From Limibacter armeniacum (lineage in GTDB: Bacteria > Bacteroidota > Bacteroidia > Cytophagales > Flammeovirgaceae): a DNA stretch of 64,000 nucleotides. Every line of letters starts with the position of its first letter. The stretch's first letter is position 1. A program made the position numbers and the translations under genes. Below, piece by piece: positions 8,709-64,000 of this stretch. The stretch is from the NCBI RefSeq assembly GCF_036880985.1, contig NZ_JBAJNO010000008.1:1240001-1304000 (forward strand), written 5' to 3'. Under the pieces are notes generated by a model, which was given only the letters and a program-made list of their open reading frames with translations, did not search any database and was not told the origin of the DNA.

Positions 8709-10708
8709 GGTTCAAAGCCCTTGAGCTTAAAGTAAGGGTGACTCTCATCGAAGATCACCTTTTCTTTTCCCACATTCTTTGCAAATAAGGGGTGCACCTT
8801 GTCAGGGTAGCGCAGGCGTTCCTTTGGGGTCTTCCGTGCGGTCTGGTTGGGTACCAGCTCCACGTCGCAGCGGCAGCCCCAGCCCAGCGGCGGATAGTTG
8901 CTTGTCCAGAACGGGTCGTCTACCGGCAAGGTGATCCCCTCCAGCCTTCGGTGCTCCTCCCTGACCCTGCTGTCATTGACCGTGCTGTAGCGCAGCATGT
9001 AGTCCTCCTTGTGCTGCTCGGCTTCCTGCCACCTGGCCGCCATCGTGGCCTGCGCTATGGCCGCATCGTATTCCGTCCGCAGCCAGGTGACATTGTAGGC
9101 ATGGTGCTTCTCCAGAGCCAGCTCTCTGAAGGCATCCCATTCCCTGAGGCGGCCATCCTGCAACAGCAGGGCATTGATCTCCTGGCAAAGCACAGCCTCC
9201 TTGAAGGAGGAGAACAGGTAGACATTCTCCTTGAGTGACTTGAGCATGGTGTGGTCCGGGGAGTCATAATCCAGGTCGACCAGCCTTTTTCCATACCCTT
9301 GCTCGACTCCCTTATATAAGGTGTCACCCACCTGGTTTGCCAGTGCCTTGAAGTCCCTGGTCTTCCAGAGTCCCTTGAACCCCCTTTTGAACAGCCTTTC
9401 AGCCACCTTTAGAAAGAGTTTAAGCAGTTCAGGATTTCCCTCTGCCATTTGTGGCTCTTGGTGGCCGGTGATGCAACAGCCCGTTTCATGGTAGAGCGCG
9501 ACCAGCTGTTGCTCCAGTCCGCTCCCCTTACCCTTTCCCGGCTTTTCCACTGGCTTGGGCTCCTCTGCCAGGATGGGGGTGCCATAGGTTTCAGTGATGT
9601 ATTCCGGATCGATACGGTACTGGGTGGCGATCCACTTGTCCACCTCCAGCTGCGTTCCTGCCAGCTTGAGGCTCTTGGAAGTATCGAAGCGGAAGTGGTT
9701 GCCCTCCACAGCATAGCCATGCTTGCCCAGCAGCGGCAGCACGTAGTCGTTGACCATGTATTCTACATAGCGGATATCGGCCTTGTATATTTGTTCCCTG
9801 GTGGTGTCGTGCACCTCCGCCTGGCTTCTGGAGGAGCCATCCTCCGTGGTCATGGTCTGCCCCAGCACCCGCTTGGATATTTCCTTGTTCGCCAGCTCGA
9901 TGGCAGAGGTGAACACCTTCTGCCCATCGGTATTCTTGGACTCATGGATCTCAAACTGTGCATCGAAGGGCAGGATGGCGTACATGGCTTCCCCCATGGC
10001 TTCTAGGTATTCCTCCAGCCCATCGAGTACCTGCTTGTCCCGGCTATCGGTCTTGGCAATCCGGTACGGGAAACCGTATACCTCCTGGTAGAGACTGTAG
10101 AAGCCTACGGCCTGCTTCTTGAATACCGTGTAGCGGGAGGCCTCCAGGAGCAACCCGGTATGGTCCGTGGTATCGTCCTTCAGGAAAAGGTAGAAGTCAT
10201 TGTAGGGGGGCTCTGCCAGGAAAAAGCGCTGCTCCCCGTTCACATCTGAGAGTACGGCACATTCCTGCGGGATGGCATGGGCCCGGTCAATGGACTGGAC
10301 TGCCACCACATGCCCCTTGTCCAAGACAAACTCAATGACCGAGTAACCGTAGTAGATACTCTCGACGACCATGCGGATAATGTCGTGCATCCACTTCTTG
10401 TCCAGCTCCTCAAAGAGTGCCTCGTTCTTTTCCCCATTCGCATCAAGGATGTGGAAGGGCGTATTGAGCACCGAGAGCGTTCGGGTATTCAGCACGGTTT
10501 GCAGGTGCGTATCGAGAAGGGCGTCCTCATAGATGCGTACCAGCTCCTCCCTTCTGGGGCGGTAGATGTCAATGGCGGCCTGGTGTGCCTTGCGCCATTT
10601 CTCGGTATCCATCCGCTCCAGGTAGCGGCTGCGCTGCTGCATTTTCACCCTTTTGGAGGATGGGCGGTTTAGAGCGCTCCTGCTTGATTTTGTGTAATAC
10701 ATATACAA
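8705..10708 (-). CDS. portal (Mu gp29/DUF935) fused to MuF-type minor head protein
   Basis: One 667-residue chain combines two Mu structural proteins. Residues about 25-390 match the DUF935 portal family (RPRREELVRIYEDALLD, YYGYSVIEFV, DGLEEYLEAMGEAMYA, SRSQAEVHD). After a Gly/Lys/Pro linker (about 395-405), residues 430-650 match the gpF/SPP1 gp7 head-morphogenesis domain, ending with the usual signature VNDSRVREEHRRLEG ... PPLGWGCRCDVE. The portal forms the DNA gate and MuF proteins are minor capsid components. No stop or frameshift separates the parts. In Mu they are two adjacent genes. Confidence 0.85.
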   Translation of the reverse strand: MYMYYTKSSRSALNRPSSKRVKMQQRSRYLERMDTEKWRKAHQAAIDIYRPRREELVRIYEDALLDTHLQTVLNTRTLSVLNTPFHILDANGEKNEALFEELDKKWMHDIIRMVVESIYYGYSVIEFVLDKGHVVAVQSIDRAHAIPQECAVLSDVNGEQRFFLAEPPYNDFYLFLKDDTTDHTGLLLEASRYTVFKKQAVGFYSLYQEVYGFPYRIAKTDSRDKQVLDGLEEYLEAMGEAMYAILPFDAQFEIHESKNTDGQKVFTSAIELANKEISKRVLGQTMTTEDGSSRSQAEVHDTTREQIYKADIRYVEYMVNDYVLPLLGKHGYAVEGNHFRFDTSKSLKLAGTQLEVDKWIATQYRIDPEYITETYGTPILAEEPKPVEKPGKGKGSGLEQQLVALYHETGCCITGHQEPQMAEGNPELLKLFLKVAERLFKRGFKGLWKTRDFKALANQVGDTLYKGVEQGYGKRLVDLDYDSPDHTMLKSLKENVYLFSSFKEAVLCQEINALLLQDGRLREWDAFRELALEKHHAYNVTWLRTEYDAAIAQATMAARWQEAEQHKEDYMLRYSTVNDSRVREEHRRLEGITLPVDDPFWTSNYPPLGWGCRCDVELVPNQTARKTPKERLRYPDKVHPLFAKNVGKEKVIFDESHPYFKLKGFEP

Positions 10709-50546: not shown

Positions 50547-52868
50547 CTATTGGACGATAATCTCATCTACAAAAAGGTAAGCGTTTTGTCCGCTTCCTTT
50601 ATGCCATTCAGGAAGCTTGTCCTGTCTTTCTACCACTACTTTAAGGTAATGGGCAGATACCTTGTCAAAGCTGGCTGTCAGGTCAGTGATCATGTCCTTC
50701 TGTTCCTGTGTTGTCTCAGGAAATGTCTCTGAGGCCACTTCCTTATATGCTTTCCCATCATCAGATGTATAAACCTTCAAGGAACGTGCTCCAAAAATCC
50801 AGCTGCCTGCCTGCACCAGCGTTCCGACTTTTACTTCAGATATTTCAGTAGGTTGTTTCAGGTCAATTACGGCTTCAAGATCGCCATGCAGGAAACCTAC
50901 CCAAGCACCACTGCCAAAGTTCATGATACCTCTCAGTCCGTCATTCAAGGCAGGCGTATATTTCTCATATCTGGAAGAAGGCGCTTTCAACAATTGCATC
51001 GGCTTGAAGCTGGCTATGTTCAACTGAATCGTTTCTGATTTCACCATGCCTTTCTCTCCATTCAGGAAAGTGGTTGCCTTTAGTGTCACAGGTTTATCGA
51101 TTGACAGTTTCTCCCCCTTGTATTGTTCACTTTGCTGATTAGGCTCCGAACCATCAAGTGTATAATAAATCGGTTCACTGCTGAATGTCGAAAGGGCTAC
51201 TTCCACTTTACCTGTCTCAGGGTTTGGAGAAGCTGCTATCTCAGCATCAAAGATATGTTTGGCGTAGTTAAGTCCCATCTGCTCATAATAGCTGATGGCA
51301 TGCAACAAACGAGGTTTGAAATCCTCAAGGTTACGGTCTTCTTTGGCTGACCACAATACCTCTGAAAGGGCCGCCATTCTTGGCAGGATCATATATTCCA
51401 CCTGCTCTGAAGATTTCATATACTCCGTCCAGACATTTGCCTGAGCACCTTTTACATATTGTTGTTCTTCTTCCGAAAGTTCTTCAGGAACTGGTTCAAA
51501 CTCGTAAACTTTGCTGACTGTAGTAAAACCTCCAATTGCCAAAGGTTCCACTTCCTTATCCAAAGACTGGTAATGGTCAAAGTAAACGTGGCTTCCTGGT
51601 GTCATGATCACATCGTGTTTCTGACGTGCTGCCTCAATACCACCATGCATACCTCTCCAAGACATAACAGTGGCATTTGGAGCCAGACCGCCTTCAAGAA
51701 TCTCATCCCATCCGATAATCTGTCTGCCTTTGCTGTTCAGGTATTTTTCAATTCTTCTGATAAAGTAACTTTGTAGTTCATGCTCGTCTTCCAGTCCTTC
51801 CGAATTGATTCGAGCCTGACATTTAGGGCAATTTTCCCACGAAGCCTTAGGGCATTCATCACCACCGATGTGGATATACTCACTAGGGAACAGTGCGACA
51901 ACTTCATCCAGTACATCCTGAAGGAAAAGGAAGGTACTGTCGTTACCCGCACAATATACCTCGTCAAAGATGCCAAAAGTAGTGGCTACATCGTAATGTT
52001 CTCCTTTACAACCGAACTGTGGGTAGGCTGCCAGTGCAGCAAGTGAGTGTCCCGGAAGCTCAATCTCAGGGATAACCGTGATAAACCTGTCTTGAGCGTA
52101 TTGTACAATTTCCTTGATCTCTTCCTGAGTATAGAAGCCACCATAAGGTTGACCATCATACTCATTGCTTCTGCCTGCATGTCCCACAACAGTTTCCTTT
52201 CTCTGGCTTCCTACTGAGGTTAGTTTAGGGTATTTCTTGATCTCAATTCTCCATCCTTGATCTTCCGTTAGGTGCCAATGAAAAGTATTCATCTTGTGCA
52301 TGGCAATCAGGTCAATATAGGTTTTGACAAAGTCGGTGTCAAAGAAGTGTCTGGCCACATCCAAGTGCATGCCTCTGTAACTGAATCGTGGTGAATCCTG
52401 AATCTGCATGGCTGAGATCGCTACCTCATTTCCTTTGGCTTTGGCAGGAATAAGTTGTCTCAAAGACTGCACACCATAGAATGTCCCTTTTGCAGATTGA
52501 CCATTTATCAGTATTCGGTCATTGGAAACCGTCAGCTCATAAGCTTCTGATGCATCCTGATTGGCAGCTGTCAGTACAATGCCGTCATCACTTGGTGTTC
52601 CTGCTGCAATTTTAGGAGCAAATCCCAATGCACCCATGATATAGCCTTGCAGCAGTTCAGCAGTTTTCTCCAATACCGGATCACCTTCAGGGTAAATGAT
52701 AGGTGTATCTTGGTTTAAGACAAACTTGCCTTCTTGGTACTGTATGGATTTGGGTTGGGGTACAATCTCTGCTTTTTGAATGCTTGTAGCATCTTTATCA
52801 GAGGAACAAGCAAACACCATTGCCATTAGTGGCAAGCAGCGTAGTAGTTGATGAAAAAGTCTATTCAT
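50547..52868 (-). CDS. GH20 beta-N-acetylhexosaminidase, lipoprotein
   Basis: A 773-residue exported enzyme. Signal peptide with lipobox FACSS (Cys about 21); N-terminal GH20b domain (about 35-165, 'AEIVPQPKSIQYQEGKFVL'); catalytic GH20 barrel (about 170-520) with the acid pair in HIGGDECPKASWE (Asp-Glu near 336-337); then a chitobiase-type C-terminal beta domain with 'PIYYTLDGSEPNQQS' (about 560-620) and an F5/8 type C discoidin-like domain to the end. It removes terminal N-acetylglucosamine from chitin or glycan oligomers at the cell surface. Confidence 0.93.
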   Translation of the reverse strand: MNRLFHQLLRCLPLMAMVFACSSDKDATSIQKAEIVPQPKSIQYQEGKFVLNQDTPIIYPEGDPVLEKTAELLQGYIMGALGFAPKIAAGTPSDDGIVLTAANQDASEAYELTVSNDRILINGQSAKGTFYGVQSLRQLIPAKAKGNEVAISAMQIQDSPRFSYRGMHLDVARHFFDTDFVKTYIDLIAMHKMNTFHWHLTEDQGWRIEIKKYPKLTSVGSQRKETVVGHAGRSNEYDGQPYGGFYTQEEIKEIVQYAQDRFITVIPEIELPGHSLAALAAYPQFGCKGEHYDVATTFGIFDEVYCAGNDSTFLFLQDVLDEVVALFPSEYIHIGGDECPKASWENCPKCQARINSEGLEDEHELQSYFIRRIEKYLNSKGRQIIGWDEILEGGLAPNATVMSWRGMHGGIEAARQKHDVIMTPGSHVYFDHYQSLDKEVEPLAIGGFTTVSKVYEFEPVPEELSEEEQQYVKGAQANVWTEYMKSSEQVEYMILPRMAALSEVLWSAKEDRNLEDFKPRLLHAISYYEQMGLNYAKHIFDAEIAASPNPETGKVEVALSTFSSEPIYYTLDGSEPNQQSEQYKGEKLSIDKPVTLKATTFLNGEKGMVKSETIQLNIASFKPMQLLKAPSSRYEKYTPALNDGLRGIMNFGSGAWVGFLHGDLEAVIDLKQPTEISEVKVGTLVQAGSWIFGARSLKVYTSDDGKAYKEVASETFPETTQEQKDMITDLTASFDKVSAHYLKVVVERQDKLPEWHKGSGQNAYLFVDEIIVQ

Positions 52869-54498: not shown

Positions 54499-56553
54499 CT
54501 AGTCAGGACTTAGTTCAAACCCAAAAATACTTCCTTCACCAGTCGTAGATTTAATTTGCAGTTGAGCAGTATGAATCTTCAAAAAATCCCTGCAAAGCAT
54601 CAGTCCCAATCCAATTCCTTTTTCATCCTTGGTGCCTAGTGTGGTATAATTTCCTTTTGCTTTTTTGATCATTTCAATTTGCTCTTCTGAAAGTCCGACA
54701 CCTGTGTCCTCAATGCTGATCAAACATTTCTTGTCCTGTAGTTTTACTTGTGCAGTTACTTTTCCATTGCTATCCGTAAACTTGATGGCGTTATTGATCA
54801 GGTTTCGAATTACAAAATCAAGCATGCGGTAATCCCCTCTGACTATTATTGGCTTTTCAGGAATACACATCTCAAGTGTGATGCCTTTTTCCTTGGCAGT
54901 AGAGCTGTAAAGGGTGTTGTTTTTATCGATCAGTTCCCTGATGTCAAATGTGCTTTCCTCATAGCGGTTTTCCTGCAATTGTGCCCGAGACCATTGCAAC
55001 AGGTTTTCCAGTAAGTCAGAAAGGTTCTGCAATGACTTGTTGGTTTCGGCAGCAATCTCTTTCATCTCTTCCTGTGATAGGCGGTGACTGTGGTGAAGCA
55101 GCAGATTAAGAAAGGAATCAAAGGTGGCCAATGGACTTCTCAGGTCATGTGAGATAATGGAAAATAGCCTGTCCTTTAGTGCATTCAATGCTTTCAGTGA
55201 CTGTTCTGATTCCTGTAGCTGGGTGACTGCTTCTGCCAGTTCTTTGGTTCTTTCCTCCACCTGCTTTTTAAGCTCCGCTTTTTGTCCGGCAATCAGCTGT
55301 TGTTTCTCACGCTCTTTCTCCTTTTCTAGTCTTTCCTTCTCCAGCTTTCTTTCCAATGCTTCCTGCTGAGACCTTTTAAACCTGTCAGCCAAACCCAATG
55401 AAAACAGGATTACCTGTGATACAACGCCCACTTGTGTGGAATGACTGATCAGCGAGCTTGCTGGCAGGATAGATACCTCTTGCAGGATCAGCAGTAATGC
55501 GCCAACAACAAAAAGGAAATTGGCTACCATAAAATAGATGGCAGGGATATAGCCTTTGCGGTAAACGAGAAACGCTGTCACAATCATGCTGACCAATACA
55601 GTAGCACCGATCAATCCAATGGCTTGTGTGGCTTCCTGAAGAAAGTCCCATTTAGTGGTATAGCTGACTATGCCTAACCCGATTGGGATAATGTAGGCAA
55701 AAGTGAGCCAGATCAGCGCCTTGTCCCAAGCGGGAAGAAACTCTCTCAGATGCAGGTACTTTCTGGTAAACAGTGTTCTGGCTACACCCGTCAACGGAAC
55801 GATCAATGTAAAGCTGTGGGCATCCCAGTAAGGAGCCTTGGGCCACAGAAATACAAGATTCAGTCCGTGATAGAACATCATATAAAGACCAATGCCGGCA
55901 ATGGATAGCACAAAATAGAAATAGCTGATATCCCGAATGGTCAGGAAAATCAGCAGGTTGTAGAGGGCCATTACCAGTATAATTCCGATAAAAAGTGTCT
56001 GGATAAACTGCTTGCGGTATTGTGTCAGCTCATAGGTACGGGCAGGTAGTAGTTGTACCTGTGCTTTTTCCTGTTCCAGAATACTCACTTTTGCACTTAG
56101 CTTGAGTAAAAGCGTCACCGATGACTGTTCATGGATAAGCAGTGGAATGGCATCTTTCTGTAGGCGGTTGGCATGTAGGCTCAGCTTTCCGGTCTGTTCC
56201 AAATGTTCCAGCGAATTAAAGTCCCATGCGTCAATCTCTCCCCATCCTGACAGCTTGAGCGTTTGGTGCAAGGTGGTGTGCGAAGGGTTTGTGATACTGA
56301 CCATCAGCCAATAATTGACCTTTCTGCTGCTGCTGAAATGCATTAACTGTGGTGCAGTGTCAGCAATTGCCGTCAACTTCTCACGAGCATCTTGGGGCGT
56401 CAGCTGTTGCAGTGAATCCTCAAGCAGGATAAATGGAATGTTTTCTTCTGATTGTGTTTCCTCCAATCCTGAAAAGAACAGTAGGTCTGAAGATTGAGCG
56501 TGAACAAACTGAAAGCCAAGCAGCAAACAGCATAATCCAAGAATAATGCGCAT
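54499..56553 (-). CDS. sensor histidine kinase with 7TMR-DISM input
   Basis: A 684-residue hybrid membrane sensor. After a signal peptide (1-19) comes an extracytoplasmic 7TMR-DISMED2-type beta domain (about 25-165, sugar-binding-like), seven transmembrane helices (about 180-390), a charged coiled coil (395-455), a HisKA dimer with H469 in FSIISHDLRSP, and an HATPase_c domain (NLINNAIKF, DTGVGLSEEQ, KGIGLGLMLCR). It phosphorylates a response regulator, most likely the LytTR protein encoded divergently 150 bases away. DISM domains sense small ligands outside the inner membrane. Confidence 0.92.
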   Translation of the reverse strand: MRIILGLCCLLLGFQFVHAQSSDLLFFSGLEETQSEENIPFILLEDSLQQLTPQDAREKLTAIADTAPQLMHFSSSRKVNYWLMVSITNPSHTTLHQTLKLSGWGEIDAWDFNSLEHLEQTGKLSLHANRLQKDAIPLLIHEQSSVTLLLKLSAKVSILEQEKAQVQLLPARTYELTQYRKQFIQTLFIGIILVMALYNLLIFLTIRDISYFYFVLSIAGIGLYMMFYHGLNLVFLWPKAPYWDAHSFTLIVPLTGVARTLFTRKYLHLREFLPAWDKALIWLTFAYIIPIGLGIVSYTTKWDFLQEATQAIGLIGATVLVSMIVTAFLVYRKGYIPAIYFMVANFLFVVGALLLILQEVSILPASSLISHSTQVGVVSQVILFSLGLADRFKRSQQEALERKLEKERLEKEKEREKQQLIAGQKAELKKQVEERTKELAEAVTQLQESEQSLKALNALKDRLFSIISHDLRSPLATFDSFLNLLLHHSHRLSQEEMKEIAAETNKSLQNLSDLLENLLQWSRAQLQENRYEESTFDIRELIDKNNTLYSSTAKEKGITLEMCIPEKPIIVRGDYRMLDFVIRNLINNAIKFTDSNGKVTAQVKLQDKKCLISIEDTGVGLSEEQIEMIKKAKGNYTTLGTKDEKGIGLGLMLCRDFLKIHTAQLQIKSTTGEGSIFGFELSPD

Positions 56554-56703: not shown

Positions 56704-57444
56704 ATGGAAACGGTAAGAATTGCAATTTTAGAAGACAATCTGGTAATGGCTAAAAACCTGACCTTTACATTGGAAGAATTGGGTTATGAAGTAGTCGGGG
56801 AATTTAGAAAAGGGGAAGACTTGCTTGAGAAGATAGCGGACTTGGATGTTGATCTCCTTCTGCTGGACGTTGAGCTGCCAGGTACAGTGGACGGCATTCA
56901 GACAGCGGCTGTATTGCGCAAAGTATATAAAGGGCCTATCATTTACTTGACCTCCCGAAAGGATGAGGATACTTTTTCAAGGGCAAAACCAACCCTGCCT
57001 GCGGCTTATCTTCAGAAGCCATTTGACAAAAATACCTTGCGGTCGAGTATAGAACTGGCAGCATACCATGCACAGCAAGAAGGAAGTGAAACTTCTGAGA
57101 GCAGTTTAGGCGAAGTTGAAGAGCTGGATGTAAAGGATGCCATTTTCGTGAAATCCAAAAACAGGCTGATGAAGGTAATCGTAGGGGATATCCTTTATAT
57201 ACAGGCCAATGATATCTATGCAACTGTCGTAACAGCAGAAGGGCAGTACCTTGTGAATTATTCCCTGAAGCATTTGGAACAACAACTGCCAAGCCTTCCA
57301 TTTTACAGAACACACCGCTCTTTTATTGTGAACCTTGATCGTGTCAGTGGCTTGGAAGATGGACATCTTTTGATAGGAGATAATACCATTCCTGTTGGCA
57401 AAACCTATAGGGAAGAACTGATGAAACATTTTAGGGTATTGTGA
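56704..57444 (+). CDS. LytTR-family response regulator
   Basis: 246 residues from METVRIAILEDNLVMAK; the Met at 56680 is not part of the receiver. Receiver domain 1-120 with acidic E10/D11, phosphorylation site D55 (LLLLDVELPG), T/S switch region LTSRKDE and KPFD. A Glu/Ser-rich linker (about 128-140) leads to the LytTR DNA-binding domain (about 150-246), with 'YIQANDIYATVVTAEGQYLV' and 'FYRTHRSFIVNLDRVSGLE', which binds paired 9-mers as direct repeats. Three such 9-mers are found downstream at 57581-57632, in front of the symporter operon. Confidence 0.93.
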   Translation: METVRIAILEDNLVMAKNLTFTLEELGYEVVGEFRKGEDLLEKIADLDVDLLLLDVELPGTVDGIQTAAVLRKVYKGPIIYLTSRKDEDTFSRAKPTLPAAYLQKPFDKNTLRSSIELAAYHAQQEGSETSESSLGEVEELDVKDAIFVKSKNRLMKVIVGDILYIQANDIYATVVTAEGQYLVNYSLKHLEQQLPSLPFYRTHRSFIVNLDRVSGLEDGHLLIGDNTIPVGKTYREELMKHFRVL

Positions 57445-57580: not shown

Positions 57581-57632
57581 TCCGTTCACCTGATAAATCA
57601 CTTCCGTTCACCTTTGAATCTTCTCCATTCAC
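57581..57632 (+). promoter_or_regulatory. three LytTR-type binding repeats upstream of the symporter operon
   Basis: TCCGTTCAC at 57581-57589 and 57603-57611 and TCCATTCAC at 57624-57632. The first two match the LytTR consensus (TA)(AC)(CA)GTTN(AG)(TC) exactly; the third differs in one base (GTT to ATT). Starts are spaced 22 and 21 bp, i.e. 13 and 12 bp between 9-mers, the spacing known for LytTR sites. The site ends about 100 bases before the symporter start and 140 bases after the LytTR regulator gene. Confidence 0.8.
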
Positions 57633-57642
57633 AAGAAAATAA

Positions 57643-57672
57643 TGTTGTGGATAGGTGAAAATTCTACATTGA
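57643..57672 (+). promoter_or_regulatory. possible Bacteroidota-type promoter of the symporter operon
   Basis: A TTG box (TGTTG, 57643-57647) lies 17 bp before TACATTGA (57665-57672), similar to the -33 TTTG and -7 TAnnTTTG pair of Bacteroidota promoters. It directly follows the LytTR repeats, a suitable place for an activator. A small hairpin (TGTCGG...CCGACA, about 57697-57714) lies in the predicted leader. Confidence 0.4.
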
Positions 57673-57734
57673 GACAACAACACATCGAAAGAATTGTCGG
57701 GTAAAGCCGACACTTAACCAGATAAACAACTTAG

Positions 57735-59273
57735 GTGAATATGGAAATGGCAGGATGGATATGCATACTTGGCTACATGGCTGTGCTCATGTTTTTTGTA
57801 ATCAGAGGAGCTCGTAAAACGACTTCCATGACAGATTTTGCTGTAGGCAGCATGATTTTTTCTCCTACTGCGGTTGGACTTTCATTGGCAGCATCCATTA
57901 CCAGTGCGGCAACCTTTATCATCAATCCAGGCTTTGTAGCCTACTACGGAATTAGCGGGGTGATTTCAATGGCTCTGGCGCTACCGTTTGGCGCACTGCT
58001 TTCTTTGGTCGTGCTGACAAAAGGTTTCCGTAAGGCAGGTGTCAAGATGAAATCACTGACCATTGCCCAATGGATAGGAGAGCGATACAAAAGTAAGCGC
58101 TATGCCACGTTCTTTGCTTTCCTATCTATGTTGCTGATTACATTCGTGGTGCTGATTTGCGTGGGACTAACCAAAGTCATCGCCAGTACGCTACAACTGG
58201 ATGAATTATCCGTACTGATCAGTATTGTAGTATTTGTATTCGGTTATGTGATGTTTGGCGGGGCTAATTCAATGGTTTATACCAATATGGTACAGGCAAT
58301 CCTGATGATTGTGGTGGCTGTGGTATTAATAGCTTCCGGTTATGAATACTTCTTTAGCGAAGGAGGAATTTTAGGAAAACTGAAAGAAATAGATGTACAG
58401 CTTGCCGAGCCTCTGAACCCATCCAGCCCGTTATTCAGAGATTATTTTGAGATCATATTCTGTCAGGTCGTTGTGGGTATTGCAGTGGTTTGTCAGCCAC
58501 ATATTATAACCAAGTCATTGTTGCTGAAGAAGGAAAGCGATGTAAATAAATACCTGTTGACAGGGGTGGTAACGGAGATCTTGTTCTTCAGCGTAGTGAT
58601 TGCAGGGCTTTATGCCAGAATAGCTTTCCCTGACCTGACTTTGGATGGACAAGCCATTCCATTGGATGGCGTACTGACAACTTATGTGGTGACCATCTTA
58701 CCTGTATCTGTAGGGTTACTGGTGGTGTTGGGATTGATTTCGGCAGGGCTTTCCACCTTGGAAGGACTAATCCAGACTGTTTCCTCAACCATAACCCAAG
58801 ATATATTGAATCCAATGATGGGGGAGAAATTCAGGAAGAATGAGAAAAAGCAGATTATGACCAATAGACTGGTGATTGTAGGGTTGGGCGTATTGTCAAT
58901 TTTCCTCTCCTATGAGCAGCTGGTTAACCCGAACCTGAGTGTGGGCATCTTTGCACAGAATGGCGTTTACGCCTACTTCTCTGCAGCCTTTATTCCGGTG
59001 CTTTTCGGACTGTTCCTGCCGAAGGTAAGGACGGTGGTTCCAGTAATAAGTTCGCTGACAGCATTGGTGGTACACTTTGGAGTGTACTACGGAGGAATTA
59101 CACCTTATATGCAAGGAGCAATCAGGAATCCGGGTATTGCGGCTGCATTGGCTATTCTGTCAGCCTTATTGGTAGCTGTGGTAGTCCACTTCTCGTTAGG
59201 TGCTAAAGAAAAAGAAGCTGAAACCATTGAGGAAACAAACTCAGCACAACTAAAAGAAACCCAATTGAACTAA
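57735..59273 (+). CDS. sodium:solute symporter (SSS family)
   Basis: A 512-residue membrane protein with about 13 transmembrane helices. The start is GTG at 57735 or ATG at 57741. 'TTSMTDFAVGSMIFSPTAVGLSLAAS' and 'SAATFIINPGFVAYYGISG' are SSS signatures; 'LGLISAGLSTLEGLIQTVSSTITQD' is the typical helix with the Na+-site serine. Substrates of this family are small organic acids, sugars or nucleosides and cannot be told here. It is the first gene of an operon of at least five genes, just downstream of the LytTR sites. Confidence 0.9.
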   Translation: MNMEMAGWICILGYMAVLMFFVIRGARKTTSMTDFAVGSMIFSPTAVGLSLAASITSAATFIINPGFVAYYGISGVISMALALPFGALLSLVVLTKGFRKAGVKMKSLTIAQWIGERYKSKRYATFFAFLSMLLITFVVLICVGLTKVIASTLQLDELSVLISIVVFVFGYVMFGGANSMVYTNMVQAILMIVVAVVLIASGYEYFFSEGGILGKLKEIDVQLAEPLNPSSPLFRDYFEIIFCQVVVGIAVVCQPHIITKSLLLKKESDVNKYLLTGVVTEILFFSVVIAGLYARIAFPDLTLDGQAIPLDGVLTTYVVTILPVSVGLLVVLGLISAGLSTLEGLIQTVSSTITQDILNPMMGEKFRKNEKKQIMTNRLVIVGLGVLSIFLSYEQLVNPNLSVGIFAQNGVYAYFSAAFIPVLFGLFLPKVRTVVPVISSLTALVVHFGVYYGGITPYMQGAIRNPGIAAALAILSALLVAVVVHFSLGAKEKEAETIEETNSAQLKETQLN

Positions 59274-59291: not shown

Positions 59292-60278
59292 ATGAAAACG
59301 AAAGGTTATTGGATGATTCTGCTGACACTGTTGTGGATGGGCGCTTGCCAATCCGAAACACAACAGCAACAGTCAGAAAAGCTTGAAGCTAACACTGAAA
59401 TTTCAGCACCTGATTTTTCATCAAAATTTACCATCAAGCATATTAATCTTCCTTCGGGAAATGAGTTGGCGTATGTAGATGAAGGTACTGGCAGTACCAC
59501 TTTGCTGATGATACATGGCTTGGGAGGTAACCTGAAACATTGGGAAACCAATATCAAAAGCTTGAAGGAAAACTTCCGTTGTATCGCTATTGACTTGCCT
59601 GGTTATGGCAACTCACCTTTTGTGGAAAGTGAAGCAAATGCAGTGACTTTCTATGCAGACCTGATCAATGAATTAAAGCAGGAACTGGGGCTTGAAAATA
59701 CAGTGATAATCGGTCACTCGATGGGAGGACAGGTAGCAATCCATTCGGTACTGAATGCACCTGAAAACTTCCAGAAAATGGTACTGGTTTCACCTGCGGG
59801 TTTGGAGACTTTCTCTTCTGTAGAAGCGATGGGCATAAAAAGTTTTGCAACGGCTGCTTACTATCAGCAGCAAGGTGAAAAGGATATTAAAACAGCTTTT
59901 GCCTTGAACTTCCATCAGCAACCTGAAGTTGCTGAGTCGTGGATTGCAGAAAGAATAGCGATGAAAGAGGAAGAAGGTTTTGACGCATACTGCAAGACAG
60001 TTGAGAGAGGAGTTACCGGTATGTTAGAAGCTCCTGTGGCTGAAAGACTGGCAGAACTGAAAGTACCTGTATTGGTAACTTTTGGTCAGGATGACAAGCT
60101 AATTCCTAACCGAATATTGCATAAGGACATGACCGTACAGCAGGTTGCTGAAAAAGCGTCTGCGATACCAAACCACCAGATTGAACTGATACCTGAGGTT
60201 GGGCATATGCCACATGTAGAAAAGCCACAGGTATTTGAAGAACTACTAAAGCATTTTCTCGAAAGCGCTGAAATCTAG
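59292..60278 (+). CDS. exported alpha/beta hydrolase, lipoprotein
   Basis: A 328-residue enzyme with lipobox MGAC (Cys about 19) after a hydrophobic signal, so it is probably anchored in a membrane on the periplasmic or outer side. The fold begins 'ELAYVDEGTGSTTLLMIHGLGGNLKHWETN' (oxyanion HG), the nucleophile is in 'IIGHSMGGQVAIH' (Ser about 143), Asp in 'FGQDDKLIPN' and His in 'EVGHMPHVEKP'. A lipase, esterase or lactonase is likely. It is 18 bases after the symporter gene. Confidence 0.9.
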   Translation: MKTKGYWMILLTLLWMGACQSETQQQQSEKLEANTEISAPDFSSKFTIKHINLPSGNELAYVDEGTGSTTLLMIHGLGGNLKHWETNIKSLKENFRCIAIDLPGYGNSPFVESEANAVTFYADLINELKQELGLENTVIIGHSMGGQVAIHSVLNAPENFQKMVLVSPAGLETFSSVEAMGIKSFATAAYYQQQGEKDIKTAFALNFHQQPEVAESWIAERIAMKEEEGFDAYCKTVERGVTGMLEAPVAERLAELKVPVLVTFGQDDKLIPNRILHKDMTVQQVAEKASAIPNHQIELIPEVGHMPHVEKPQVFEELLKHFLESAEI

Positions 60279-60335: not shown

Positions 60336-62801
60336 ATGAAAATGAAGAAGCTACTATCTACACTCTTGCTGCTGTGCATGACGGCATTGGCTGTTATGGC
60401 ACAGGACAAAGCATCTCTTAAAGGCGCTATCAAGGATAAGCTGTCGGGACAGCCACTGATTGGGGCGACAGTAATGTTAAATGAAATCAACAAGGGAACA
60501 GTTACCAATAGCAGTGGTATGTTCCAGTTGGCAGAGCTTCCGGCAGGAGACTACACCCTGAATGTGAGTTTTGTAGGTTTTGAAACCATTTCACAGAAAG
60601 TAAGCCTGAAGGCTGGTGAAGTGAAAACATTGGACTTTGGTCTGAGTGAGTCAGCGCTGATGAGTGACGAAGTGGTTATCTCAGGTACAAGAAAAGCTGA
60701 AAAAATTACAGAGACACCTGCAACCATCGAAGTAATTGGTGCTGAGCAGTTGGCAGAGTTGCCATCTTTTAACCCTGGTGAATTGCTTGCCCGCCAAAAA
60801 GGGGTAGACTACTTCCGTGCGGGTGTTGTCGGTACTGGTATCAACGTTCGTGGATTCAACAGTAACTTCAATGCCAAAAACCTTCAGGTGACAGATGGCA
60901 GATTCTCTTCACTGATTGCAACAGGTCTACCTCTAGGCCCATTGAATACAGTAGTGAAGGAAGATATTGAAAGAATGGAATTGGTATTGGGACCAAATGC
61001 GGCGCTCTTCGGTCCGAATGCTCACAACGGCTTGATCAACACGATTACCAAAGACCCTAGAAAACACGAGGGAACAACGATTGCGATCAATGCAGGAAAC
61101 CAGAAAATGTTCTCCACAAGATTGCGCCATGCTGAAAAGGTAAGTGACAAGTTTGCTTACAAGGTGACTGGTGAGTACTCAAGAGGTGAAGAGTTTGAGT
61201 ATATTGACTCTGTATACTTGGCACCGAATAACCCAGTTGAAGAGCTTGACCTAGACCGTGACTTTGAGTTTTTCCGTGGAGAAGCAGCTATGATCTACTC
61301 ACCTGTTGAGGACATGGATATTACAATGGCATACGGAGGAAGTAACAGTACTTATCTGGCTCCTACCAACGTAGGTCGTAACCAAATTGTGGACTGGCAA
61401 GTGCATTACCTACAAGGTAAATTCTCCTACAAAGGTTTCTTCGCACAAATCTACCATACGATCAGTAAGACTCAAGATACATATTCCATCAGTGATTATA
61501 CCAAACAGTATTATGGAGCGATCGGAGCAGGTATGAATGAGCAGGAAGCAAGAGTTTATGCCAAAGACCCATCAAGAGGAGCTTTGTTCATTGATGACTC
61601 AAAACGTTGGAATGCTGAAATGCAATACAGCAAAAACCTGTTCGGAGTAGACGTTACAGTAGGTGCTCAATGGCAGCGTGATATGGCTAACTCACACGGT
61701 ACTTACCTGTTGGACAAGAATGAAAAAGACTATATCACAATTGATCAGATTGGCGCTTATGCACAAGCAGAAAAGAAATTTGCAGGAGGGTTGAAACTGG
61801 TGGGGGCCTTGAGAGCAGATAATCACGAAGTATATGGCTTTAACCTGTTGCCTAAGGTGGGTGCAGTTCAGACAATTGGCGATCACAACTTCCGCTTGAC
61901 TTATGGTAAAGGTATTGCAGCACCAACCATCCTGAACATGTATGGTAACCTGTTTGGTGGTCTGATATTGGGTAATGCCGAAGGATTTACAATGGTACCA
62001 GGTGAAGATGGCAGTGTTCAGACAATCGAGAAACAAAGAGTGGAGCAACTTCAAACAATTGAATTGGGCTACAAAGGTCAGCCAGTGAAAAGCAAGCTGT
62101 TTATCGATGCCAATGCTTATTACAATATCTCAAAAGACTTCTTAAGCCCTGTAACAGTAATCGGTGTAGCTGACAAGATGGGTGATCAGAAAGTGACGGA
62201 TGTACAGTCAAACCCTGCTTTGGGAGGATTGGTTGCTACTTATGTCAACTTTGGTGAGTTCAATACTTACGGTGCTGATTTGGGTATCAACTATTACTTC
62301 AGTGATCAGCTGAGTGCTACGCTGAATTACTCATACTTCGGGTATAAAATTGATGAGAACAATCTAGAAAATGACTTCAATAAAGACGGTGTAGTAAACA
62401 AGCTGGACCTATTAGTGAATGCACCTAAAAACAAGGCTTCACTAGGTTTGAACTATAGTGGTAGCAAGTTCTTCGGATCGGTATTCACTCGTTGGGTAGA
62501 GAAATATGATTACTTCTCAAGCTACCAGATTGCAGCTGAAACACAGGATCTGGTTTACCGTGGCGTACCAGTAGTAGAAAATGCAAGAAGTGCCAACGCC
62601 TTCAACTACGGTCCACTTGGTGGGTTTGTAACGATGGATGTTAGCTTAGGTTACCACATCAACGAGATCTTCACAGTATCAGGTATGGTGACAAATGTGT
62701 TTGATCAGGAGTTGAGAGAGTTTACAGCAGCTCCTCCAACAGGTAGACTGATGTCACTGGAGTTGAAAGTGAATTTGCCTTCTTTCACAAAAGCAGATTA
62801 G
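60336..62801 (+). CDS. TonB-dependent outer-membrane receptor
   Basis: An 821-residue outer-membrane transporter. Signal peptide (about 1-22, ending MAQ), carboxypeptidase-regulatory-like domain (about 25-105, 'IKDKLSGQPLIGATVMLNEI'), plug domain (about 110-250, 'ETPATIEVIGAEQLAELPSF', 'NVRGFN'), then a 22-strand barrel ending in LELKVNLPSF-type residues. It has no SusD partner in the operon, unlike polysaccharide loci, so a small or hydrophobic ligand is more likely. It is 57 bases after the hydrolase gene. Confidence 0.9.
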   Translation: MKMKKLLSTLLLLCMTALAVMAQDKASLKGAIKDKLSGQPLIGATVMLNEINKGTVTNSSGMFQLAELPAGDYTLNVSFVGFETISQKVSLKAGEVKTLDFGLSESALMSDEVVISGTRKAEKITETPATIEVIGAEQLAELPSFNPGELLARQKGVDYFRAGVVGTGINVRGFNSNFNAKNLQVTDGRFSSLIATGLPLGPLNTVVKEDIERMELVLGPNAALFGPNAHNGLINTITKDPRKHEGTTIAINAGNQKMFSTRLRHAEKVSDKFAYKVTGEYSRGEEFEYIDSVYLAPNNPVEELDLDRDFEFFRGEAAMIYSPVEDMDITMAYGGSNSTYLAPTNVGRNQIVDWQVHYLQGKFSYKGFFAQIYHTISKTQDTYSISDYTKQYYGAIGAGMNEQEARVYAKDPSRGALFIDDSKRWNAEMQYSKNLFGVDVTVGAQWQRDMANSHGTYLLDKNEKDYITIDQIGAYAQAEKKFAGGLKLVGALRADNHEVYGFNLLPKVGAVQTIGDHNFRLTYGKGIAAPTILNMYGNLFGGLILGNAEGFTMVPGEDGSVQTIEKQRVEQLQTIELGYKGQPVKSKLFIDANAYYNISKDFLSPVTVIGVADKMGDQKVTDVQSNPALGGLVATYVNFGEFNTYGADLGINYYFSDQLSATLNYSYFGYKIDENNLENDFNKDGVVNKLDLLVNAPKNKASLGLNYSGSKFFGSVFTRWVEKYDYFSSYQIAAETQDLVYRGVPVVENARSANAFNYGPLGGFVTMDVSLGYHINEIFTVSGMVTNVFDQELREFTAAPPTGRLMSLELKVNLPSFTKAD

Positions 62802-62870: not shown

Positions 62871-63614
62871 ATGAAACGACTAGCAGGAAAAACAGCAATC
62901 ATCACAGGTGGTGCAGCAGGTATTGGCAAGACAGCGAGTTTGATGTTTGCCCGTGAAGGAGCTTCCGTAGCCATTTGGGACTTGAATGAGGAAAAGGGAC
63001 TGGAGACGGTTCAGATGATTGAGGAGACAGGTGGAAGAGCGATGTTCCAAAAAGTGAATACCGCTGACTATAACAGTGTACAGTCCGCTGTAAGCAAAGT
63101 GATCCAAGAGTATGACCAGATTGACATTCTGGTAAACAATGCAGGCATCACAAGAGATGCATCACTGAAGAAAATGACACCTGACCAATGGCAGCAGGTA
63201 ATTGATGTAAACCTGACAGGCGTATTTAACTGTACAAAACTGGTGGCAGACCATATGGTCGAAAAAGGTAAGGGACGTATTATCAGTACTTCTTCAGTGG
63301 TAGGTCTGTACGGAAACTTTGGACAAACCAACTATGTGGCGACCAAGTCTGGTGTAATTGGTATGACCAAGGTTTGGGCTCGTGAACTGGGACGTAAAGG
63401 GATCACCTGTAATGCAGTTGCTCCTGGGTTTATCGAGACGGAGATGACCAAACAGATTCCTGAAAACGTGATTGATGGCATCAAGGCAAAAATCCCAATG
63501 GGACATATGGGTAAGCCTGAAGACATTGCAAATGCCTATTTATTCCTGGCTTCTGATGAGGCTAAATATATCAATGGTACTGTCCTAAGCGTGGATGGCG
63601 GTATGGTTGGCTAA
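62871..63614 (+). CDS. short-chain dehydrogenase/reductase, FabG-like
   Basis: A 247-residue NAD(P)-dependent enzyme. The cofactor motif TGGAAGIGK is at 12-20, 'NNAG' at 89-92 and the catalytic set Ser141/142, Tyr155 and Lys159 in 'STSSVVGLYGNFGQTNYVATK'. The end 'INGTVLSVDGGMVG' is typical of FabG/PhbB-type reductases that act on 3-oxoacyl groups. D36/L38 near the strand-2 end (WDLNEE) suggests NAD(H) preference. It is followed by a KAS III gene, which fits acyl-chain metabolism. Confidence 0.9.
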   Translation: MKRLAGKTAIITGGAAGIGKTASLMFAREGASVAIWDLNEEKGLETVQMIEETGGRAMFQKVNTADYNSVQSAVSKVIQEYDQIDILVNNAGITRDASLKKMTPDQWQQVIDVNLTGVFNCTKLVADHMVEKGKGRIISTSSVVGLYGNFGQTNYVATKSGVIGMTKVWARELGRKGITCNAVAPGFIETEMTKQIPENVIDGIKAKIPMGHMGKPEDIANAYLFLASDEAKYINGTVLSVDGGMVG

Positions 63615-63756: not shown

Positions 63757-64000
63757 ATGAGAAATGCAATCATACTATCCTCAGGTATGTATGTGCCTGA
63801 GCAAATTGTGTCCAATCAATACTTCAATGACTTACTGGGAGAGGATGTCGATACATGGCTAAGAGAAAATGTACAGATTCACGAAAGACGCTGGTGTACA
63901 AAAGAGGAGTCTGTCGCAGACCTTTGTGTCAAGGCAGCCGAGCAGATTCTGGAAAGAGCCAATGTAAAAGCAGAAGAATTGGATCTGCTGATTATCGCAA
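63757..64000 (+). CDS. beta-ketoacyl-ACP synthase III (FabH-like), N-terminal part
   Basis: An ATG at 63757 opens a frame to the window end (81 codons): MRNAIILSSGMYVPEQIVSN, then 'DTWLRENVQIHERRW', 'ESVADLCVKAAEQILERANV' and 'ELDLLIIA', the typical first third of FabH/KAS III proteins (start 'G.Y.P...v.N', 'w...r.GI.eR'). The Cys-His-Asn catalytic residues lie beyond the window. It could act on fatty acids or on a dedicated acyl product together with the SDR enzyme before it. Confidence 0.85.
   Translation, partial: MRNAIILSSGMYVPEQIVSNQYFNDLLGEDVDTWLRENVQIHERRWCTKEESVADLCVKAAEQILERANVKAEELDLLIIA

Follow-up and report, generated by a model that had tools for sequence, protein, structure and literature searches.

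The window, that is, the whole stretch of 64,000 nucleotides of the Limibacter armeniacum genome analysed here, carries a response regulator gene on the plus strand (56704-57444), whose product combines a receiver and a LytTR domain (Pfam Response_reg, 1.2e-19, and LytTR, 4.2e-20, both above cut-offs); about 16 LytTR matches were found in the genome. A divergent gene on the minus strand (54499-56553), located on the far side of the regulator gene from the repeats described below, encodes a sensor histidine kinase with 7TMR-DISM, HisKA and HATPase_c domains (Pfam) and a weak 7TMR-DISMED2 match below the cut-off. The kinase is of the HisKA type and not of the LytS type, which is defined by a His_kinase domain and a 5TM LytS sensor. 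The putative target operon begins with the gene for an SSF sodium:solute symporter (57741-59273, plus strand; Pfam SSF, 3.7e-33), for which a GTG at 57735 is a possible alternative start. The symporter gene is followed on the same strand by genes for an alpha/beta hydrolase with a lipoprotein-like N-terminus (59292-60278; Pfam Abhydrolase_1, 5.6e-28), a TonB-dependent receptor (60336-62801; Pfam), a FabG-like short-chain dehydrogenase (62871-63614; Pfam and NCBIfam) and a FabH-like synthase (63757-64000), which is cut by the window end and continues past it. An acyl-CoA ligase, a second alpha/beta hydrolase and a secreted PHA-depolymerase-like protein are encoded beyond the window (L004 14836-19249). 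The LytTR regulator, the histidine kinase and the symporter had already been named in the initial annotation, and all three assignments agree with the Pfam results. Elsewhere in the window, a 773-amino acid ORF on the minus strand (50547-52868) resembles, by eye only, a beta-hexosaminidase of family 20 that is extended at the C-terminus.

The last protein of the operon matches NF050058, the model for extracellular short-chain PHA depolymerases, above its cut-off (E 1e-88) and also contains a fibronectin III domain; a gene for such a depolymerase is expected in a PHA-utilisation operon. Depolymerase-like genes are likewise present in three other genomes (G004, G014, G140). The symporter and the TonB receptor co-occur in nearly all relatives read, and FabG, FabH and the ligase in most of them; the gene order varies, and the conserved content extends to another order of the class (G140, G058, G260). 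The operon most likely serves the use of extracellular polyhydroxyalkanoates or oligo-esters, a substrate deduced from family names, and its job is likely to comprise polyester breakdown outside the cell, uptake of the oligomers and their CoA-dependent oxidation, again judged from the protein families. A literature search turned up no paper that connects these genes with the use of PHB by Bacteroidetes.

Three direct repeats upstream of the symporter

The 296-bp gap between the stop codon of the regulator gene and the symporter gene contains three 9-mers, TCCGTTCAC (57581-57589), TCCGTTCAC (57603-57611) and TCCATTCAC (57624-57632), whose start-to-start periods of 22 and 21 bp are those given in the initial annotation. 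The corresponding putative LytTR boxes, all on the plus strand, are box 1 (TCCGTTCACC, 57581-57590), which is kept in 18 genomes, box 2 (TCCGTTCACC, 57603-57612) and the promoter-proximal box 3 (TCCATTCACA, 57624-57633). The spacers of 13 and 12 bp fall within the definition of a LytTR-type operator, namely direct repeats of 9 to 11 bp separated by 11 to 13 bp, whereas the copy number of three departs from the canonical two repeats. The general LytTR consensus is [TA][AC][CA]GTTN[AG][TG]; copies 1 and 2 deviate from it at the last position and copy 3 at two positions, so that the consensus match that had been claimed holds only in part.

Single copies of the 9-mer are not unusual: 12 were found in the window with at most one mismatch compared to 9.4 expected. 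The pattern CRTTCAC-N14-15-CRTTCAC, however, has two matches in the whole 8.04 Mb genome, both of which lie within the triple at 57581-57632, and the reversed-pattern control has none. A looser pattern, CCRTTCAY-N12-15-CCRTTCAY, gave one extra two-copy match elsewhere in the genome. The genome-wide search that had been proposed for the triple repeat returned its strict form once, at this locus.

Conservation of the repeats with the regulator

Orthologues of the symporter were collected from 34 genomes, 18 of which, representing nine genera, carry the triple repeat, and 16 of which do not. In all 18 genomes with a regulator of the clade described below, the triple lies 124 to 229 bp before the symporter match, with periods of 22/21 or 21/21 bp and, in one case, 21/22 bp; in the other 16, the best motif match did not exceed those of shuffled sequences. 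As the positives themselves had served to train the motif model, it was re-run with each genus withheld in turn. Eight of the nine genera (10 genomes) were clearly recovered, with scores of 27 to 39 compared to shuffle maxima of 8 to 17. When genus g230 with its eight genomes was left out, the same place was found in six of them, mostly not above shuffles, and the evidence for this genus therefore consists of within-genus conservation and promoter spacing.

The regulators of the 18 repeat-bearing genomes form one clade (support 99/93). Among the genomes without repeats, the regulators of G593, G605, G058 and G140 fall outside this clade, no close regulator was found in G011, G115 and G260, and seven further genomes have none at E<=1e-36; the regulators of G533 and G536, with approximately 36% identity or weaker, were left out of the tree. 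Counted by genus, this corresponds to 9/9 versus 0/13, for which the Fisher probability, uncorrected for phylogeny, would be near 2e-6. An orthologue of the kinase is present in all 13 repeat-bearing genomes tested and, at E<=1e-60, absent from G011, G593 and G140, of which G011 is only 77% complete.

The neighbourhood of the repeats differs between genomes. The regulator gene lies upstream of the symporter in G004 and in the genomes of g230, as in the window, while in G014 the kinase gene takes this place and the regulator gene points away, with the repeats still preceding the symporter. In six genomes (G020, G039, G390, G031, G433 and G451), the regulator gene is far off or on another contig. 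The repeats stay with the symporter whatever gene adjoins, and they are therefore part of the symporter promoter and not of the regulator gene's 3' end. The symporter gene of several repeat-less genomes is internal to the operon, either behind FabH (G011, G593, G260) or behind the depolymerase gene (G140). Between genera, the core identities of boxes 1, 2 and 3 are 0.87, 0.93 and 0.66, respectively, making box 2 the best-kept copy, and those of the spacers 0.36 to 0.43 (chance 0.27); thus, the distance is conserved and the spacer sequence is not.

A search of 58 genomes for a strict RTTCAC triple gave 5 matches and 6 control matches, those of two genomes being tandem arrays, and strict counts across genomes are therefore misleading on their own. 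With a looser three-box pattern, the symporter site was found in 15 of the 18 genomes and other matches were about as frequent as those of reversed-pattern controls, and, judging by these sequence searches, the circuit seems to serve a single operon per genome. Viral contigs contained no match, and plasmid records contained only distant regulators, none of which reaches 60% identity, with 39.6% as the highest value among the five matches listed.

Promoter geometry and predicted regulation

In Bacteroidota, the -7 element has the consensus TAnnTTTG. A partial match to it, TACATTGA, is located on the plus strand at 57665-57672, 31 bp after box 3, and is preceded at a distance of 17 bp by a weak -33-like element (TTG, 57645-57647), assigned on the basis of the Bacteroidota consensus. 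In 17 of the 18 genomes, with every one of the nine genera represented, TANNTT occurs 31 or 32 bp past the third repeat, and it is seen only now and then at other places within the 70 bp that follow; the -7 element played no part in motif training or search. The site thus shows the fixed distance to a -7 element that is expected of a Bacteroidota activator promoter. If the -7 box is set as -14 to -7, the repeats occupy about -99 to -46 on one face of the DNA, and this position just upstream of the core promoter is an activator arrangement. A promoter-like sequence after the repeats had been noted before. A sigma-70 scan near the repeats gave five matches, which is at chance level (3.7 expected), and the Bacteroidota-type box at 57665 is the more credible element. 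Past the -7 element and ahead of the symporter start, the leader also contains a short inverted repeat, TGTCGGGTAAAGCCGACA (57695-57712), which is terminator-like on the minus strand only.

The best explanation, to which we assign a probability of roughly 0.85, is that the three repeats serve the adjacent LytTR regulator as its operator, and that this regulator is predicted to activate the symporter operon in nine genera. The 7TM sensor kinase would respond to a signal, which may be released when polyhydroxyalkanoate or another ester is broken down, and phosphorylate the regulator. By analogy with the LytTR family, the regulator may then occupy the three boxes, which follow one another at intervals of roughly two helical turns along one DNA face, as a cooperative row, and could contact RNA polymerase from the promoter-proximal box, whose end lies at roughly -47 from the predicted transcription start, thereby turning on the genes for the symporter, hydrolase, TonB receptor, FabG, FabH, CoA ligase, second hydrolase and depolymerase. 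The complete circuit of kinase, regulator, operator and operon suggested initially is supported, as a prediction from comparative data, by the co-occurrence in nine genera, the regulator clade, the fixed -7 distance and the persistence of the repeats at the symporter operon when the upstream gene changes. LytTR regulators mostly bind upstream of the -35 element and activate transcription, and their sites consist of 9 to 11 bp repeats with 11 to 13 bp spacers (PMC4847170, PMC11347149). Several points speak against the operator reading: copy 3 is off consensus, the kinase is of the HisKA type and not of the LytS type usual for LytTR regulators, the sites of g230 mostly do not exceed shuffles when this genus is withheld from training, and the tree does not include the regulators of G533 and G536.

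It is rather unlikely that the repeats are the operator of the regulator and that the operon is repressed, or that the main role of the site is feedback control of the regulator gene. One LytTR regulator with three repeats, CoxC, does act as a repressor (PMC11347149); however, its site overlaps the -35 element, whereas the boxes described here, across nine genera, end approximately 32 bp short of the -7 element. Feedback would fit a Flavobacteriales metagenome-assembled genome (MAG), in which a similar triple precedes the regulator gene itself, but here the repeats are positioned 3' of that gene, or the two are on different contigs, and a search of the gap between kinase and regulator genes found no triple. 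Binding by another transcription factor next to a coincidental LytTR regulator is improbable: a paralogue among the numerous LytTR proteins of this genome could bind, but the repeats track the regulator clade over nine genera even where the regulator gene is unlinked, and they are arranged in the geometry of LytTR sites. An origin by chance, or by recent tandem duplication without function, can practically be dismissed. Single copies are indeed common at one mismatch and the strict triples of two other genomes are simple tandem arrays, but here it is the cores that are retained, and the spacers vary both within the triple and from genus to genus; both the cross-genus conservation and the fixed -7 spacing contradict this explanation.

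The conserved putative operator, with three boxes and a fixed promoter spacing, provides a testable target operon that is likely involved in bioplastic or ester breakdown. These bacteria possess many LytTR regulators, yet a literature search of open-access papers found none defining a Bacteroidota LytTR operator; the triple now offers one that can be tested, and it may serve as a template for locating the targets of similar regulators.

Other triple repeats and comparison with known systems

It is tempting to speculate, at somewhat less than even odds, that Bacteroidota LytTR regulators share an architecture of three repeats with a period of 21 to 22 bp, the last of which ends 31 to 32 bp before TAnnTTTG, and that this arrangement is reused for different operons. 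If true, LytTR targets would be predictable from DNA alone. A second triple in G021 supports this idea (L047 12094-12145): TCCATTCAC, TCCATTCAC and CTGTTCAC recur with a period of 21 bp, with TACTTTTG 31 bp downstream, and precede an unrelated operon for an NmrA-like oxidoreductase and a methyltransferase, behind the genes for a distant LytTR regulator (36% identity) and a kinase. The triple of the Flavobacteriales MAG (JAGQVN010000068.1, L036 6200-6251), composed of CCCATTCACC, CCCGTTCACC and GTCGTTCGCC with a period of 21 bp, sits immediately in front of the gene for a LytTR regulator (44% identity) and has no evident -7 box; its position suggests autoregulation. A weaker triple, GTTTACT/ATTCACT/TTTCACT, with a period of 21 bp was seen on the minus strand of G027 (L049, about 8775-8830), just 3' of another LytTR gene and followed by TACATTTG at a distance of about 35 bp. 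The exact motif of the symporter site is not common to all LytTR regulators, as single 5-mer autocorrelation gave little signal over approximately 30 mostly paralogous LytTR loci.

AgrA, VirR and other LytTR regulators of Firmicutes recognize imperfect 9-bp direct repeats with 12 to 13 bp spacers upstream of the promoter. The site described here resembles theirs in all of these features; however, AgrA and VirR bind repeat pairs at Firmicute promoters and control quorum sensing or virulence. The E. coli systems BtsS/BtsR-btsT and YpdA/YpdB-yhjX are LytS/LytTR two-component systems with apparently one transporter target each (PMC5552118, PMC4847170). Common to these and the present system are a LytTR response regulator, a direct-repeat site, apparently one target and an operator that is co-conserved with the regulator across species. 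BtsSR and YpdAB, however, use two repeats, a LytS-type kinase and a single transporter gene, whereas the present system has three repeats, its kinase is of the HisKA/7TMR-DISM type, and its target is a long catabolic operon. Three direct repeats with 12 to 13 bp spacers are known from the CO-responsive one-component LytTR regulators RcoM-1 and CoxC (PMC11347149). They differ in being one-component sensors of another phylum that use 8-bp repeats, TTCNNGCA or TTNNNGCN, and CoxC acts as a repressor, whereas the three-box operator upstream of the symporter is predicted to mediate activation.
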